Virus record (IMG/VR): IMGVR_UViG_3300020472_000163
Location: 1 to 24,155 of that record
From: a virus
Length of the DNA stretch: 24,155 nucleotides
Reading direction: 5' to 3' (one strand)
Below are positions 249-5,072 of the stretch, one piece after another. Under the pieces are notes generated by a model. It saw only the letters and a program-made list of their open reading frames with translations, was not told the DNA's origin and did not search any database. The first letter of the stretch is position 1, and each line of letters starts with the position of its first letter. A program made the translations under genes and the position numbers.

Positions 249-512
249 TTATTTTGAACTTTCTTCAAAGGGGCTATCCACTTCGATCTCTGTCACGTCG
301 CCGTCTGCTGTTTTCCAATTAAACATGCGGAAGGCATTCGTGTCCAAATCCCATACCAGTTCCATTCCCTCTGCGAGAGTGGACTTGCGACCGGTTCCCT
401 TGATCTGAGAAGTGATAAACTTCTCGGGAATGTCAGTCATACGGACAAAGCGCATGGTGCGCGTGTCTCCGTTCTTCTTAATAAATTTACCGTTATATGC
501 TTTCATCAGCAT
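249..512 (-). CDS. small conserved-type phage protein, function unknown (87 aa)
   Basis: The start ATG (512-510) overlaps the TAA stop of the tubulin-like gene as TAATG, and GGAG lies 5 nt upstream, so translation is probably coupled. A second ATG two codons on (product MKAYNGKF) is an alternative start. The 87-residue product is basic at its N-terminal half and acidic at its end. It has alternating strands such as MRFVRMTDIP, and an ELVWDLDTNAFRMFNW stretch at about residues 50-66 that suggests a small beta-barrel. There is no signal peptide and no membrane segment. I do not recognise the family. The tight coupling suggests it works with, or at the same time as, the tubulin-like protein. It may also be an independent small nucleic-acid or host-modulating protein. 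Confidence 0.75.
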   Translation of the reverse strand: MLMKAYNGKFIKKNGDTRTMRFVRMTDIPEKFITSQIKGTGRKSTLAEGMELVWDLDTNAFRMFNWKTADGDVTEIEVDSPFEESSK

Positions 513-1351
513 TATGTCTCCTGTTGTATCTCTGATGTGTTGGCTATTAAATAGCCATAGTTGTTGTTGTAGTCAGTAGAGTGAATCCGCACCGAAACAA
601 TGGTTTCATCACCTACCATGGATGCGCTACGTTCGCGCAAAGATGTAAATAGCTTGCCGTCTGTTTCAAGCTGTTTTTTATTGATAGCATAAATATAACA
701 CCTTTCGTTGATGGTGTCAAGGGGAAAAAACAACTTTTCTTCATTTTCTTCAATATCCACCACACCGAAGGTTGAAACACGGGCTGTTGCCAGCGAAGTC
801 GCGGGTGTGTTGTAGACGGTCTTAGTGTTCAAGAAAACGTTTGTCATGTGAACCGTGTTGACGATTAATTCATTTAGACGTTCATAATACCCGATAACGG
901 GCACGCTGTCAAGTACTTCTTCTACTTTTTTATTATCGACTAGGTAAATCTTCTCAAAAATGCCAGACCGCGCATACTCCTGCAATACATGATACGCTAC
1001 TCGTTCATGCATTAGTGCCTCTTTACTAAGGAGCGCACGATCTGGTTTGACATAAAGGATATTAATCTTGCAACGCTGGACTTGCTCTAGGATCTTTAAT
1101 GTTGCTGCCGATACTTTGCCGGCGCCACAAACAATAAACAAAACTTCTTCGCCCGCCTTTAGCGGCTTGAAGAAAGCCTTGAGATTTAGTGCATCGCTCT
1201 CATAGGCTTCTGCACTATCCGACTCAGGAATGGGATAACAGTCCTTACCCTTCACCAACCCTACGTCAATCTTAAAAACATTGTATTGTGGATACTGTGC
1301 AAACCCATCTGCGATATTGCAGCCGGCAGCACCCAAACCGATGATATTCAT
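512..1351 (-). CDS. divergent FtsZ/tubulin-fold protein
   Basis: The 279-aa product matches the N-terminal GTPase domain of FtsZ/tubulin in order. Residues 1-13 (MNIIGLGAAGCNI) correspond to the FtsZ strand and first nucleotide loop. Residues 68-90 (GEEVLFIVCGAG, then a helix) correspond to the T4 glycine loop. Residues 97-103 (NILYVKPD) correspond to the FtsZ VVTKPF strand. LVDN at 137-140 matches IPND, and the helix at about 150-175 matches central helix H7. The classical GGGTGTG signature is replaced by GAGKVSAAT. No NxDxxD-like catalytic loop is visible after H7, so GTP hydrolysis is doubtful. The C-terminal part is short (FtsZ is usually 350-400 aa). The start has GAGGTGAG just upstream and lies 8 nt after the 797-aa gene. 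The fold is inferred from colinear motifs, not from a search. A different Rossmann-like nucleotide-binding protein is the main alternative. Confidence 0.6.
   Translation of the reverse strand: MNIIGLGAAGCNIADGFAQYPQYNVFKIDVGLVKGKDCYPIPESDSAEAYESDALNLKAFFKPLKAGEEVLFIVCGAGKVSAATLKILEQVQRCKINILYVKPDRALLSKEALMHERVAYHVLQEYARSGIFEKIYLVDNKKVEEVLDSVPVIGYYERLNELIVNTVHMTNVFLNTKTVYNTPATSLATARVSTFGVVDIEENEEKLFFPLDTINERCYIYAINKKQLETDGKLFTSLRERSASMVGDETIVSVRIHSTDYNNNYGYLIANTSEIQQET
541..557. repeat. 17-bp dyad inside the tubulin-like gene, 28 nt before the next start
   Basis: TGGCTATT and AATAGCCA flank a single central base (549), giving an 8-bp inverted repeat. It lies in the last codons of the tubulin-like gene and just upstream of the 87-aa gene. 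It contains a CTATTTAATAG core resembling the intergenic element before other genes here. It may be coincidence imposed by coding. Confidence 0.35.
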
Positions 1352-1359
1352 TTCTCACC

Positions 1360-3753
1360 TCAACTATATAAAAAGCTTTTCCAGTTACGGACAATGGATT
1401 CGTTAGTAGCGTCTCTTGGCGGCTCTGCGGTCCTGTCGTCGGTGGTCTGGACGTGCTCGCCCACCACCTGATTGAACACAGCCTGCACTCTTGCTGCCAA
1501 CTCGTCTTCGTCGTCGTTATGCTCAATCGTGACTTTCATAGCCTCGATTTGTTCTTCGCTACTGTTGTCGTTGACCTCAAGCACCATGTACAGCCTAATC
1601 GTCGGATTGTCGCCCGTGCCAATGACTCCAACCTTTGTAATCATATTTGGATAATGCCTGTCATCACCCGGTGTGCCCTCTTCGTTCCATGCATGTTGAG
1701 TCAGCGCCTGACGCAACGGAACGCTAAACTCTCTGCTCATCAGAATCGTCTTAACATCTTCGGGTGACATGTTGTCGGGGTAGTCTGGATATGCGAATGC
1801 TGTAGCCTCGACACCATAGTATTCCTGATAGTCTGCTTCTTCGGCTGTAACGTCCCACTCATATGTTTGAAACTCTCCGTCGTTTACTTCTTGACCAAAT
1901 GTGTTGAGGGCGCCGCCGTCCATGTATCCGTCGCGCTTTGCCATGCGAGACAACTCGCCCTTGATTGCATCGTACATGTCGTCAATCTCGTTGACCTTGT
2001 AACAAACGTCTTGGAAAGAATCGGCGTTATAAACGTAGCCGTCCTCGGAGATATATTCGCTATCAAGTTGGATATCCAGAATGATGCCATCGCCGTCACG
2101 ATAGAGGCGTGTGCCCCATGAAGAATCGTCCATGAAGCCCCATTCTCTATCGCGGAATTCATCAGCCCAATATTCCATAATCTTGCGAGCATCTGGAAGC
2201 GAGTTCCATTCGTCAGCGTCCCATCTAACGTGCATAATGGCGTTTACCTGAACGTAGTAGCCTTCGCCGCCGTCGTATACAACCTCGCCTTTGATATCGC
2301 ATGCCTGCATTCGGTAAGACCAGTCGTCTGAAAGCTCGTTGACTCTCGCTTGTTCCGCAGCCATGGTTTGCTCTAGGAAATCCATTTCTGGTAGCGTGTC
2401 TTCTGTGTCTGTATTCTGTCCGACTCTTTCAAGCTCAATGCCTGTCAAGTCGTGGATGAGTCCCTTGATATTATTATCCTCGTAAGATCCACCGTACTTA
2501 ACCCAAAAGGCATCTTCTGGTACGGATGCGATAGTTTGCGCCTGACTCTCCTTAGCCCACGCCGCAACTCTCTTCTGAAAGCCGGGGATCTTGGAACCAT
2601 ACACGCGGGTTTCGGGAATGGCGATCTGGGCGCCCTTTTCGTACTTAGCTTCAGATGTGTCTCGATATACACGGACCTGACGCAGACGGACGCGAGAAAG
2701 CGGAACAAAGCTGGTGGTAAGCCCAACGTGACTGCCGCGCATATCATCGGCAAAAATCTCTTCGCCAGCATTGATCGCGGCTTCAGCGGCTTCAAGATTA
2801 TTCGTCTCTGTGGCTTCAAACAGTTCTTCTGTGCTCACCACGTAGGCGACAGCGCCATGCCCATGAGCCTCTGCGACTGCGCATCTAAATTCTGATTGCA
2901 TGTGTTGTTCGCGTGATGGTGGCGAATGACATGATGTGATTCGCTGGAAATCTGACATGCGGAGAATGTCTACGGGATCGCGTGTAATTATAATACTGTA
3001 TCGGTCGCTGAACAGTTTGTCCATATTCTTCTTAATATAGCCGGCATTGTCCTTCCAAAAGTTTCCGAAGTCTACCGCCATTTCTGCTGCTGTGTTGGCG
3101 CCGTCCATCAGACCGCTGTTGCGGGCAGCGTAGCCGCCGTCCATCAAGCCGGGATTGGGAATATACAGCGACATCTGCTTATGCAGCCGCTCCCACGATT
3201 CCATCTGCTCTGCGTTGAGAGCATCTGCAGCCTCATTGCCAGTGACGTTGCCGGGATGACGGAGAGTGCGATCTGCCTTTTTCTGGATAATGGCAAGCAA
3301 CTCATCCTGTCTGCGTGCGATATCCGCAATCTTTGCAAAGAGCTTGCCGATTTTCATCTGAATCTTCTTCTTTTTCTTCTCTGGGCGTGCGCCAGTGATT
3401 GCAGCCATGATGTCGTCTGCGTTGGACTTCGCTGAAACCTCTCTTTCGGCAGAAACCATGCCTTTTTCCCAATCTACCGTATATCCTTGGTCTTGGAGCG
3501 TTTTGGCAAACTTGCCCATATCGCTTGTTTCATCAAATGCTTGGAAATCGATGATAAGGCGCGTTTTACCTTCAAATAGGTCGTTGAACGCCAAATCCTC
3601 CGGTTCCATATCATCGATGGCATCTTGGATGACCGAATACTCGTCTTCATCGAGTTCTCTGAGCAATCTGCTCTCTGTGTACATCTTTGGCTTTTTAGCC
3701 GGTTTTCTGGCTTCTGTTAAAAACTTGCGCCAGCCATATTCGTCGTATTTCAT
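1360..3753 (-). CDS. large phage protein of unknown function with an S-C-H motif (797 aa)
   Basis: No family is recognised with certainty. From residue 250 a compact conserved-looking block reads YSIIITRDPVDILRMSDF, then ITSCHSPPS with Cys275-His276, then CAVAEAHGHGAVAYVV with Cys291, His297 and His299. The R-D-P-x-D-x-x-x-M-S ... S-C pattern recalls a group of large uncharacterised phage proteins, and the clustered Cys/His residues look like a catalytic or metal site. Residues 125-163 are a lysine-rich helix. Residues 450-797 are very acidic, with several Tyr/Asp-rich strands. The N-terminus (GWRKFLTEAR, residues 7-16) and C-terminus (RNWKSFLYS) each carry a W-x-x-F-L peptide. ATG at 3753 follows AGAGG and an A/T-rich element at 3769-3778. 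It leads the polymerase-side cluster with the tubulin-like gene only 8 nt downstream. It could be a virion enzyme or internal protein. Confidence 0.85.
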   Translation of the reverse strand: MKYDEYGWRKFLTEARKPAKKPKMYTESRLLRELDEDEYSVIQDAIDDMEPEDLAFNDLFEGKTRLIIDFQAFDETSDMGKFAKTLQDQGYTVDWEKGMVSAEREVSAKSNADDIMAAITGARPEKKKKKIQMKIGKLFAKIADIARRQDELLAIIQKKADRTLRHPGNVTGNEAADALNAEQMESWERLHKQMSLYIPNPGLMDGGYAARNSGLMDGANTAAEMAVDFGNFWKDNAGYIKKNMDKLFSDRYSIIITRDPVDILRMSDFQRITSCHSPPSREQHMQSEFRCAVAEAHGHGAVAYVVSTEELFEATETNNLEAAEAAINAGEEIFADDMRGSHVGLTTSFVPLSRVRLRQVRVYRDTSEAKYEKGAQIAIPETRVYGSKIPGFQKRVAAWAKESQAQTIASVPEDAFWVKYGGSYEDNNIKGLIHDLTGIELERVGQNTDTEDTLPEMDFLEQTMAAEQARVNELSDDWSYRMQACDIKGEVVYDGGEGYYVQVNAIMHVRWDADEWNSLPDARKIMEYWADEFRDREWGFMDDSSWGTRLYRDGDGIILDIQLDSEYISEDGYVYNADSFQDVCYKVNEIDDMYDAIKGELSRMAKRDGYMDGGALNTFGQEVNDGEFQTYEWDVTAEEADYQEYYGVEATAFAYPDYPDNMSPEDVKTILMSREFSVPLRQALTQHAWNEEGTPGDDRHYPNMITKVGVIGTGDNPTIRLYMVLEVNDNSSEEQIEAMKVTIEHNDDEDELAARVQAVFNQVVGEHVQTTDDRTAEPPRDATNESIVRNWKSFLYS

Positions 3754-3848: not shown

Positions 3849-5072
3849 TTACTTTTTGAGGATCAAATCCGTCATGTTGCCAAAATCTAGCCCAACTTTA
3901 GTGTTCACCTTGAAGGTACCGAACTCGGTTTGGCTAAAAAGGTTAATAAGTTCTGGTATCATTTTTCGTTCTCCATAGGCAAGGTCGATGACGATTGAAT
4001 CATGAAGTGTGAAAGCGATTCGGCTTCTGTAGTTTCTAAGATGGTTATGGACTTCAATGAGTCTCCGGAGGGTAACATCCACGCAACTAGACTGAATAAT
4101 GTAACTGAGAGAATGATGATGGTCGCTAGGAATGGTCCGTCCGAATCGTGTGGAGACATGTGTGCCGGTCCAATGCGAGCTAATAATTCTCTCTCTTCGG
4201 TACGTTTCTTCCAGTAGTTTTTCCACAGACCCATCATTAATACCTAGTGTGCCGGTGACGTTTTTTCTACCGTATAACCAAGCAAAGATTCTGCGCTTCG
4301 CCTCTTGCCTATCAATGTCACCAAAGATATTCTCTATATTCCACTGATGAATGTCAATGTCGGGCTGTTCTTGCCCTGCCAAAGCCAAAGCCACACGTAG
4401 TTCAGCAGCGTTGTAATCTAGCTCCAAAAACCAGTCATTGTTGGGCTTAACCACCGAACGATACTGCTTATCGAGCGTTAGTATTGGAAAGCTGCCCGGC
4501 ACGTTCGTCAAGCGACCGGTTTTAGTACCCCATATGTTATAACGACAGTGGGATGAATACTTCTGAAGGTTCTTTACAAACTTTCGCGTAGAAGCCTTGT
4601 GGTAGATGGGGCGAATGCCTTCCATGTTGAGGGTCAATTCATTATACCGAATATCATCGAGCGTCACTCTTAGCTGCTTGATGAAGTCATAGTTGTCAGG
4701 CTTCTCATAGCTGTCGAATACGTGTTGCGTGATCTTGTTCTTAACCTCACAATAGTCCAATAGAAATTGGCGGGGTACAAGATCGAAGAAACAATTCTCG
4801 TCCAACGAAACCTTGGCGAACCCGAAGGAGCGATAGTACGCTTTCAGCTTATCCCTCACGCCTTCCCACTGCGTGCGCAAATGCGGCGGACATACTTGAT
4901 CCAATGACATGCCTCCGCAATAAAGCTTGGCATATTCTATATCAGTGTCCTGCAAAAACGTGCTGTAGTCCCATGTCTGCGACAATCCTGTGGGGATGGT
5001 GTCGTGTATGAGTTCACCGTCCACATAGACGCCTACGCAGTCCTTCTTATCATCGAGAGTTTGAAATAGCAA
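3849..5072 (-). CDS. family A DNA polymerase, polymerase domain only
   Basis: All polymerase signatures of the PolI family are visible in 407 aa. TKTGRL is at 183-188. Motif A is LELDYNAAELRV with Asp219, followed by DIH around 239-241. Motif B is RQEAKRRIFAWLYG (255-268), with Lys259, Phe263 at the Pol I Phe762 position, and Tyr267. IQSSCVDVTLRRL is at 326-338. Motif C is LHDSIVID with Asp358. It should extend DNA using Asp219 and Asp358 as the metal-binding pair. There is no 3'-5' or 5'-3' exonuclease domain; the roughly 150 residues before the palm are not exonuclease-like. The only bacterial-type start in the open frame before conserved sequence is TTG at 5072, with AAGG 7 nt upstream. 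The frame is open further, overlapping the 611-aa gene, without a better start. The gene lies 13 nt after the 611-aa gene. Confidence 0.93.
   Translation of the reverse strand: MLFQTLDDKKDCVGVYVDGELIHDTIPTGLSQTWDYSTFLQDTDIEYAKLYCGGMSLDQVCPPHLRTQWEGVRDKLKAYYRSFGFAKVSLDENCFFDLVPRQFLLDYCEVKNKITQHVFDSYEKPDNYDFIKQLRVTLDDIRYNELTLNMEGIRPIYHKASTRKFVKNLQKYSSHCRYNIWGTKTGRLTNVPGSFPILTLDKQYRSVVKPNNDWFLELDYNAAELRVALALAGQEQPDIDIHQWNIENIFGDIDRQEAKRRIFAWLYGRKNVTGTLGINDGSVEKLLEETYRRERIISSHWTGTHVSTRFGRTIPSDHHHSLSYIIQSSCVDVTLRRLIEVHNHLRNYRSRIAFTLHDSIVIDLAYGERKMIPELINLFSQTEFGTFKVNTKVGLDFGNMTDLILKK

Follow-up and report, generated by a model that had tools for sequence, protein, structure and literature searches.

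The question raised by this locus is whether a 279-aa protein encoded by an uncultured virus belongs to the tubulin/FtsZ superfamily after having lost the GTPase signatures of that superfamily and, if so, what it does for the phage. The gene lies at positions 512 to 1351 of the window, the whole 24,155-nucleotide stretch that was analysed (positions 1 to 24,155 of IMG/VR record IMGVR_UViG_3300020472_000163); it is on the minus strand, as are all the window features located below, and its assignment is based on the ORF, the structure model, the fold matches and the family. The original prediction had listed a series of colinear FtsZ-like segments, and all of them are present in this ORF: GLGAAGCN at residues 5-12, VLFIVCGAGKVSAAT at residues 70-84, LYVKPD at 99-104, LVDN at 137-140 and YYERLNELIVNTVHM at 155-169. 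Comparison of the gene with three relatives rendered dN/dS values of 0.07-0.13, and the gene is under strong purifying selection. These values, together with the existence of relatives at 33-91% identity and of a ribosome-site-like sequence, GAGGTGAG, immediately 5' of the ATG, indicate that the ORF is a real gene.

An AlphaFold2 model, built without templates from an alignment of 78 sequences, has a mean pLDDT of 94.1 and a pTM of 0.92 and contains two domains joined by a core helix H7 (residues 155-174; 830..889, from model and alignment), the arrangement that defines the superfamily. The top 50 Foldseek matches in the PDB are all TubZ, FtsZ or tubulins (best E 5.4e-12, TubZ), and the best match among viral structure models is an uncultured Caudovirales protein named FtsZ (E 1.7e-12). 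With VIA-align the best match is CetZ (Z 24.6, rmsd 2.9 over 257 residues), with CetZ2 at Z 23.0 and TubZ at Z 22.7 over residues 1-279. At the sequence level, a profile-profile alignment against 15 FtsZ sequences runs colinearly through residues 3 to 167 (156 columns, P 4e-4) and pairs GAGKVSAAT with GMGGGTGTGAA, LVDN with IPND, and YYERLNELIV with the start of FtsZ H7. A search of the PDB with the family profile (hmmsearch) gave CetZ1 as the sole superfamily match, at an E of 1.6 that is not significant by itself, in two colinear segments, N-terminal and H7, in the right order. A full fold predicted without templates and a colinear FtsZ profile alignment together place the resemblance to FtsZ beyond chance, and the protein is, as modelled, a complete tubulin/FtsZ fold. 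Superposition on the tubulin GTPase fold had been chosen beforehand as the test on which the original prediction of a divergent tubulin-fold branch would stand or fall; the structure search matches tubulins over the whole length, in agreement with the profile alignment. A reading as an NAD(P)-binding Rossmann protein, suggested by weak TrkA_N matches, was dropped because the model fits tubulins along its full length.

The conservation pattern among the 78 members separates what has been kept in the nucleotide site from what has been lost. Eleven columns are invariant, among them G5, G7, A9, G10, L85, Y100, N140 and N160, and six of these (G5, G7, A9, G10, N140 and N160) fall in the expected nucleotide site; P103 (77/78), G76 and Y155 (75 each), G78 (73) and S81 (71) are nearly so. 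The glycine loop T1 characteristic of the superfamily, G5-L-G-x-A-G-C11 (1319..1339), is kept as GLGxAGC. N140, in the T6 segment LVDN (932..943), aligns with FtsZ IPND, and the segment containing N160 aligns with the start of FtsZ H7, so that by position both occupy base-contacting places, which we take to be those of the guanine-contacting T6 and H7 residues of tubulin/FtsZ (N206 and N228 of beta-tubulin). Contact of N140 and N160 with guanine may be inferred from this alignment, and guanine-nucleotide binding by the protein is plausible. As anticipated in the original prediction, on the other hand, the catalytic signatures are gone. No member carries the T4 signature GGGTG(S/T)G (0/78), in place of which a degenerate loop, GAGKVSAAT (residues 76-84; 1100..1126), is found by profile alignment and motif count, two residues shorter than FtsZ GMGGGTGTG, and a T3 phosphate-contact motif cannot be recognised in the family alignment. 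The catalytic T7 loop, NxDxx[D/E], is likewise absent between H7 and S7 in all 78 members, the linker that joins the two elements being 17 residues long in every one of them (779..829), which implies that both T7 and H8 have been replaced. T7-type hydrolysis within a polymer is thus not expected from the sequence, and nucleotide binding without hydrolysis, raised earlier as a possibility, fits the conserved T1 loop and base-contact positions; with a degenerate T4 and an unrecognisable T3, however, binding may be weak or lost. The rest of the protein is a C-terminal domain (residues 192-279; 515..778, from alignment and model) with a conserved hairpin near DIEENEEKLFF, and a clade-specific motif near the end of H5, QEYxRSG, belongs to the best-conserved parts of the sequence.

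When the window protein was used as a single query, Pfam, PHROGs and the PDB (phmmer) gave nothing meaningful, and tblastn against the 50,697 phage records of INPHARED gave no match, so that annotation from one sequence does not reveal the family. Neither this protein nor any of 15 members matches Pfam Tubulin (PF00091), the best match in a relative (E 0.0085) lying below the curated cut-off. In IMG/VR, a single-sequence query rendered 24 loci, and a profile query found relatives encoded in at least 588 stretches. One copy was found among 84,980 species genomes, in the chromosome record of a WOR-3 MAG (CP070664.1, about 2243222-2260037), where a phage piece with a shortened UvsX gene is followed by opposite-strand genes; we treat it as an embedded (integrated) or misassembled viral piece. 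A description of the family was not found in the open-licence papers covered by our literature search, preprints being outside its scope.

The genomic context of the gene is nearly constant. At nearly all loci the order is tail genes, the tail-region genes c5 and c4, a gene for a family-A DNA polymerase (PolA) of about 400 aa, the tubulin gene, and then genes for a gp32-like SSB, UvsX, a 5'-3' exonuclease, DnaB and a B12-type RNR, which bears out the earlier remark that replication genes lie nearby. In order to avoid circularity, linkage was assessed with a PolA profile as the query, whose 80 best matches (44-86% identity) define the clade for which constant linkage holds: the tubulin gene is downstream of PolA at 78 of the 80 loci, and at the remaining two the contigs stop 18 and 2 bases past PolA, which makes 78 of 78 testable loci. 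In most loci without an insert the PolA stop and the tubulin start overlap by 4 or 13 nt, and in some loci inserts, the longest of about 2.6 kb, lie between them. These include, in part of the family (L016, L034, L046, L050, L101 and others), a gene for a MazG-like NTP pyrophosphohydrolase, so called by eye from the motif KLVRDKIPEI, and, in the subclade of the window, a gene for a 797-aa protein (1360..3753) with no convincing family match, whose relatives include those in L001, L029 and, in shorter form, L057. On the other side, the original prediction had coupled the tubulin to an 87-aa protein. Its gene (249..512), WYL_2-like (Sm/SH3) by a match below the Pfam cut-off, does overlap the tubulin stop by one base in the window (TAATG), but it is present in only part of the family, so that this coupling is not general; what does stay constant is the PolA gene, on the upstream side. 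In one subclade (L005, L010, L052 and relatives) its place is taken by a protein of about 85-95 aa with conserved cysteines and, as judged by eye, an N-terminal hydrophobic segment, a small membrane protein. An obligate partner encoded after the tubulin was rejected, as a WYL_2-like protein, a small membrane protein or neither may be found there.

To place the carriers, nine contigs of 106-204 kb were analysed. All nine encode a T4-type gp23 and a single copy of the tubulin-family gene, and by gp23, sheath and helicase the closest cultured phages are Flavobacterium phage immuto and Microcystis phage Mel-JY01, together with Rhodothermus phage RM378 by gp23. These three belong to the Far-T4 group (PMC4360716), and the carriers are, by sequence, Far-T4-like phages. 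The paper describing the group nowhere mentions tubulin or FtsZ (PMC4360716). The likeness extends to the gp23 capsid, sheath and helicase and, for immuto, to the order of the replication genes, whereas no tubulin is detectable in the cultured RM378, immuto and Mel-JY01. Immuto has a second PolA, of 777 aa, and two unrelated small genes at the place of the tubulin gene in the operon; the idea that these, gp2 and gp3, could be a split tubulin was discarded since profile scores were not significant. Immuto gp2 (L238:1346-1801) and a 129-aa protein of Mel-JY01 (L237:15675-16064), both encoded after the short PolA at the position of the tubulin in other phages, have in common the motif ILVHRKKESNTxYTIN.

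The neighbouring polymerase (3849..5072, 407 aa) is short, without a 3'-5' exonuclease domain, and its motif residues, including the catalytic aspartates D219 and D358, are invariant in the alignment. Its structure model (pLDDT 94.6) aligns with the Bst Pol I large fragment and KlenTaq (Z about 24), and with the separate 5'-3' exonuclease of the same operon it apparently constitutes a split Pol I. Each of the nine long contigs has one PolA, and searches of them with PolB, T4 clamp, DnaN and PolA-exonuclease models gave no match. Seven of the nine encode a Pol III alpha (about 1,140-1,160 aa), which indicates that the role of main replicase probably does not fall to the short PolA, and for this reason we dropped the idea that it is the only polymerase and that the tubulin replaces the clamp. 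Phages of this clade with a T4-type capsid have a bacterial-type Pol III alpha (L260, L261 and L262, 18155 onward) in place of a detectable T4 PolB.

Among sampled loci, mean pairwise identity is 0.45 for the tubulin, 0.49 for PolA, 0.60 for SSB and 0.69 for UvsX, and 0.39 and 0.26 for a LysM tail protein and c4, respectively. Of the genes compared, it is PolA whose distances are best tracked by those of the tubulin (r 0.885; partial correlation 0.53-0.64, jackknife-stable). The adjacent UvsX-exonuclease pair, however, reaches a partial correlation of 0.66, so that close linkage alone could produce the PolA-tubulin value, which weakly supports the explanation given next.

The explanation to which we incline, with slightly better than even confidence, is that the gene represents a third family of phage tubulins, carried by Far-T4-like phages, that would bind guanine nucleotide without T7-type hydrolysis and serve replication or recombination with the short PolA. 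The fold, the invariance of T1, N140 and N160, the loss of GGGTG(S/T)G and T7/H8, the operon linkage and the selection are its computed parts. Acting as a monomer, dimer or filament, the protein would bind guanine nucleotide and would have no T7 mechanism with which to trigger hydrolysis in the next subunit. Rather than forming a dynamic spindle, it would be gated by nucleotide and have a structural or regulatory role in phage replication/recombination, most likely acting with the short PolA beside the 5'-3' exonuclease in gap filling or primer removal, while the main replicase would probably be the Pol III-type enzyme. We advance only tentatively a more specific form, in which the tubulin-fold protein would work specifically for the DNA polymerase, as a subunit of the phage PolA replication/recombination complex that is gated by GTP and does not hydrolyse it. 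Against the explanation in general, co-transcription is no proof of contact between PolA and the tubulin, and in immuto and Mel-JY01 the operon with its short PolA is kept although no tubulin is detectable, so that in some phages PolA does not need it.

It can also be the case that the protein forms static or slowly turning filaments which position the phage DNA or the replication site, hydrolysis being absent or done otherwise. This is the main rival, and we regard it as rather unlikely. T7, H8 and H9 material is assigned to the lower longitudinal face of tubulin subunits, and in this family it is missing or reduced; moreover, the last element of the model is a strand (residues 265-272), the protein ends at 279, and a long C-terminal tail or helix such as PhuZ uses is not predicted. 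Filaments would nevertheless be consistent with a fold that matches TubZ, CetZ, FtsZ and microtubule subunits over its whole length and with the location of the gene in a replication operon, and PhuZ mutants in the T7 loop still make nondynamic filaments (PMC7950403). That the protein is a relic scaffold, no longer binding nucleotide and working as a purely protein-protein adaptor in the replisome, would agree with the state of T4 and T3 and with the conservation of QEYxRSG, but is improbable given that six of the eleven invariant columns lie in the expected nucleotide site. The capping or poisoning of host FtsZ, entertained in the original prediction, we consider very unlikely. In principle, a T7-less subunit could occupy the nucleotide face of FtsZ without activating hydrolysis; yet the sequence is far from FtsZ, and linkage to PolA wherever it could be tested (78/78 loci), a single copy in each of the nine long contigs and strong purifying selection are unlike what is found for a patchy anti-host gene.

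Comparison with known systems points to a new family, with a possible new function. The best structural match is with archaeal CetZ, which keeps GGGTG(S/T)G and T7, both missing here. FtsZl-1 and FtsZl-2 (Makarova and Koonin 2010) are also divergent families of the FtsZ/tubulin superfamily first described from sequence, but they are cellular, with a proposed role in membrane remodelling, phages being unmentioned in that paper (PMC2875224). TubZ, from plasmids and phage C-st, is similarly a mobile-element tubulin matching over the whole length (Z 22.7), but works in segregation with TubR and tubS (PMC7950403), whereas the constant neighbours here are the PolA and gp32 genes. PhuZ of phiKZ and 201phi2-1 is, like the new family, a phage-encoded tubulin fold with a divergent T4 (GGASGST in phiKZ PhuZ), but belongs to another phage group and gene context and has a long C-terminal helix/tail and the catalytic T7 needed for dynamics (PMC7950403). 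In a review of jumbo-phage tubulins, TubZ and PhuZ are the two families recognised, and the dynamics of PhuZ are linked to its T7 loop (PMC7950403); a third family, T7-less, polymerase-linked and with members in hundreds of sequences from uncultured viruses, would be a natural tubulin without T7-type hydrolysis, would make a direct service of the tubulin fold in DNA replication testable and, should the polymerase-partner reading be true, would represent a use of that fold outside the cytoskeleton.
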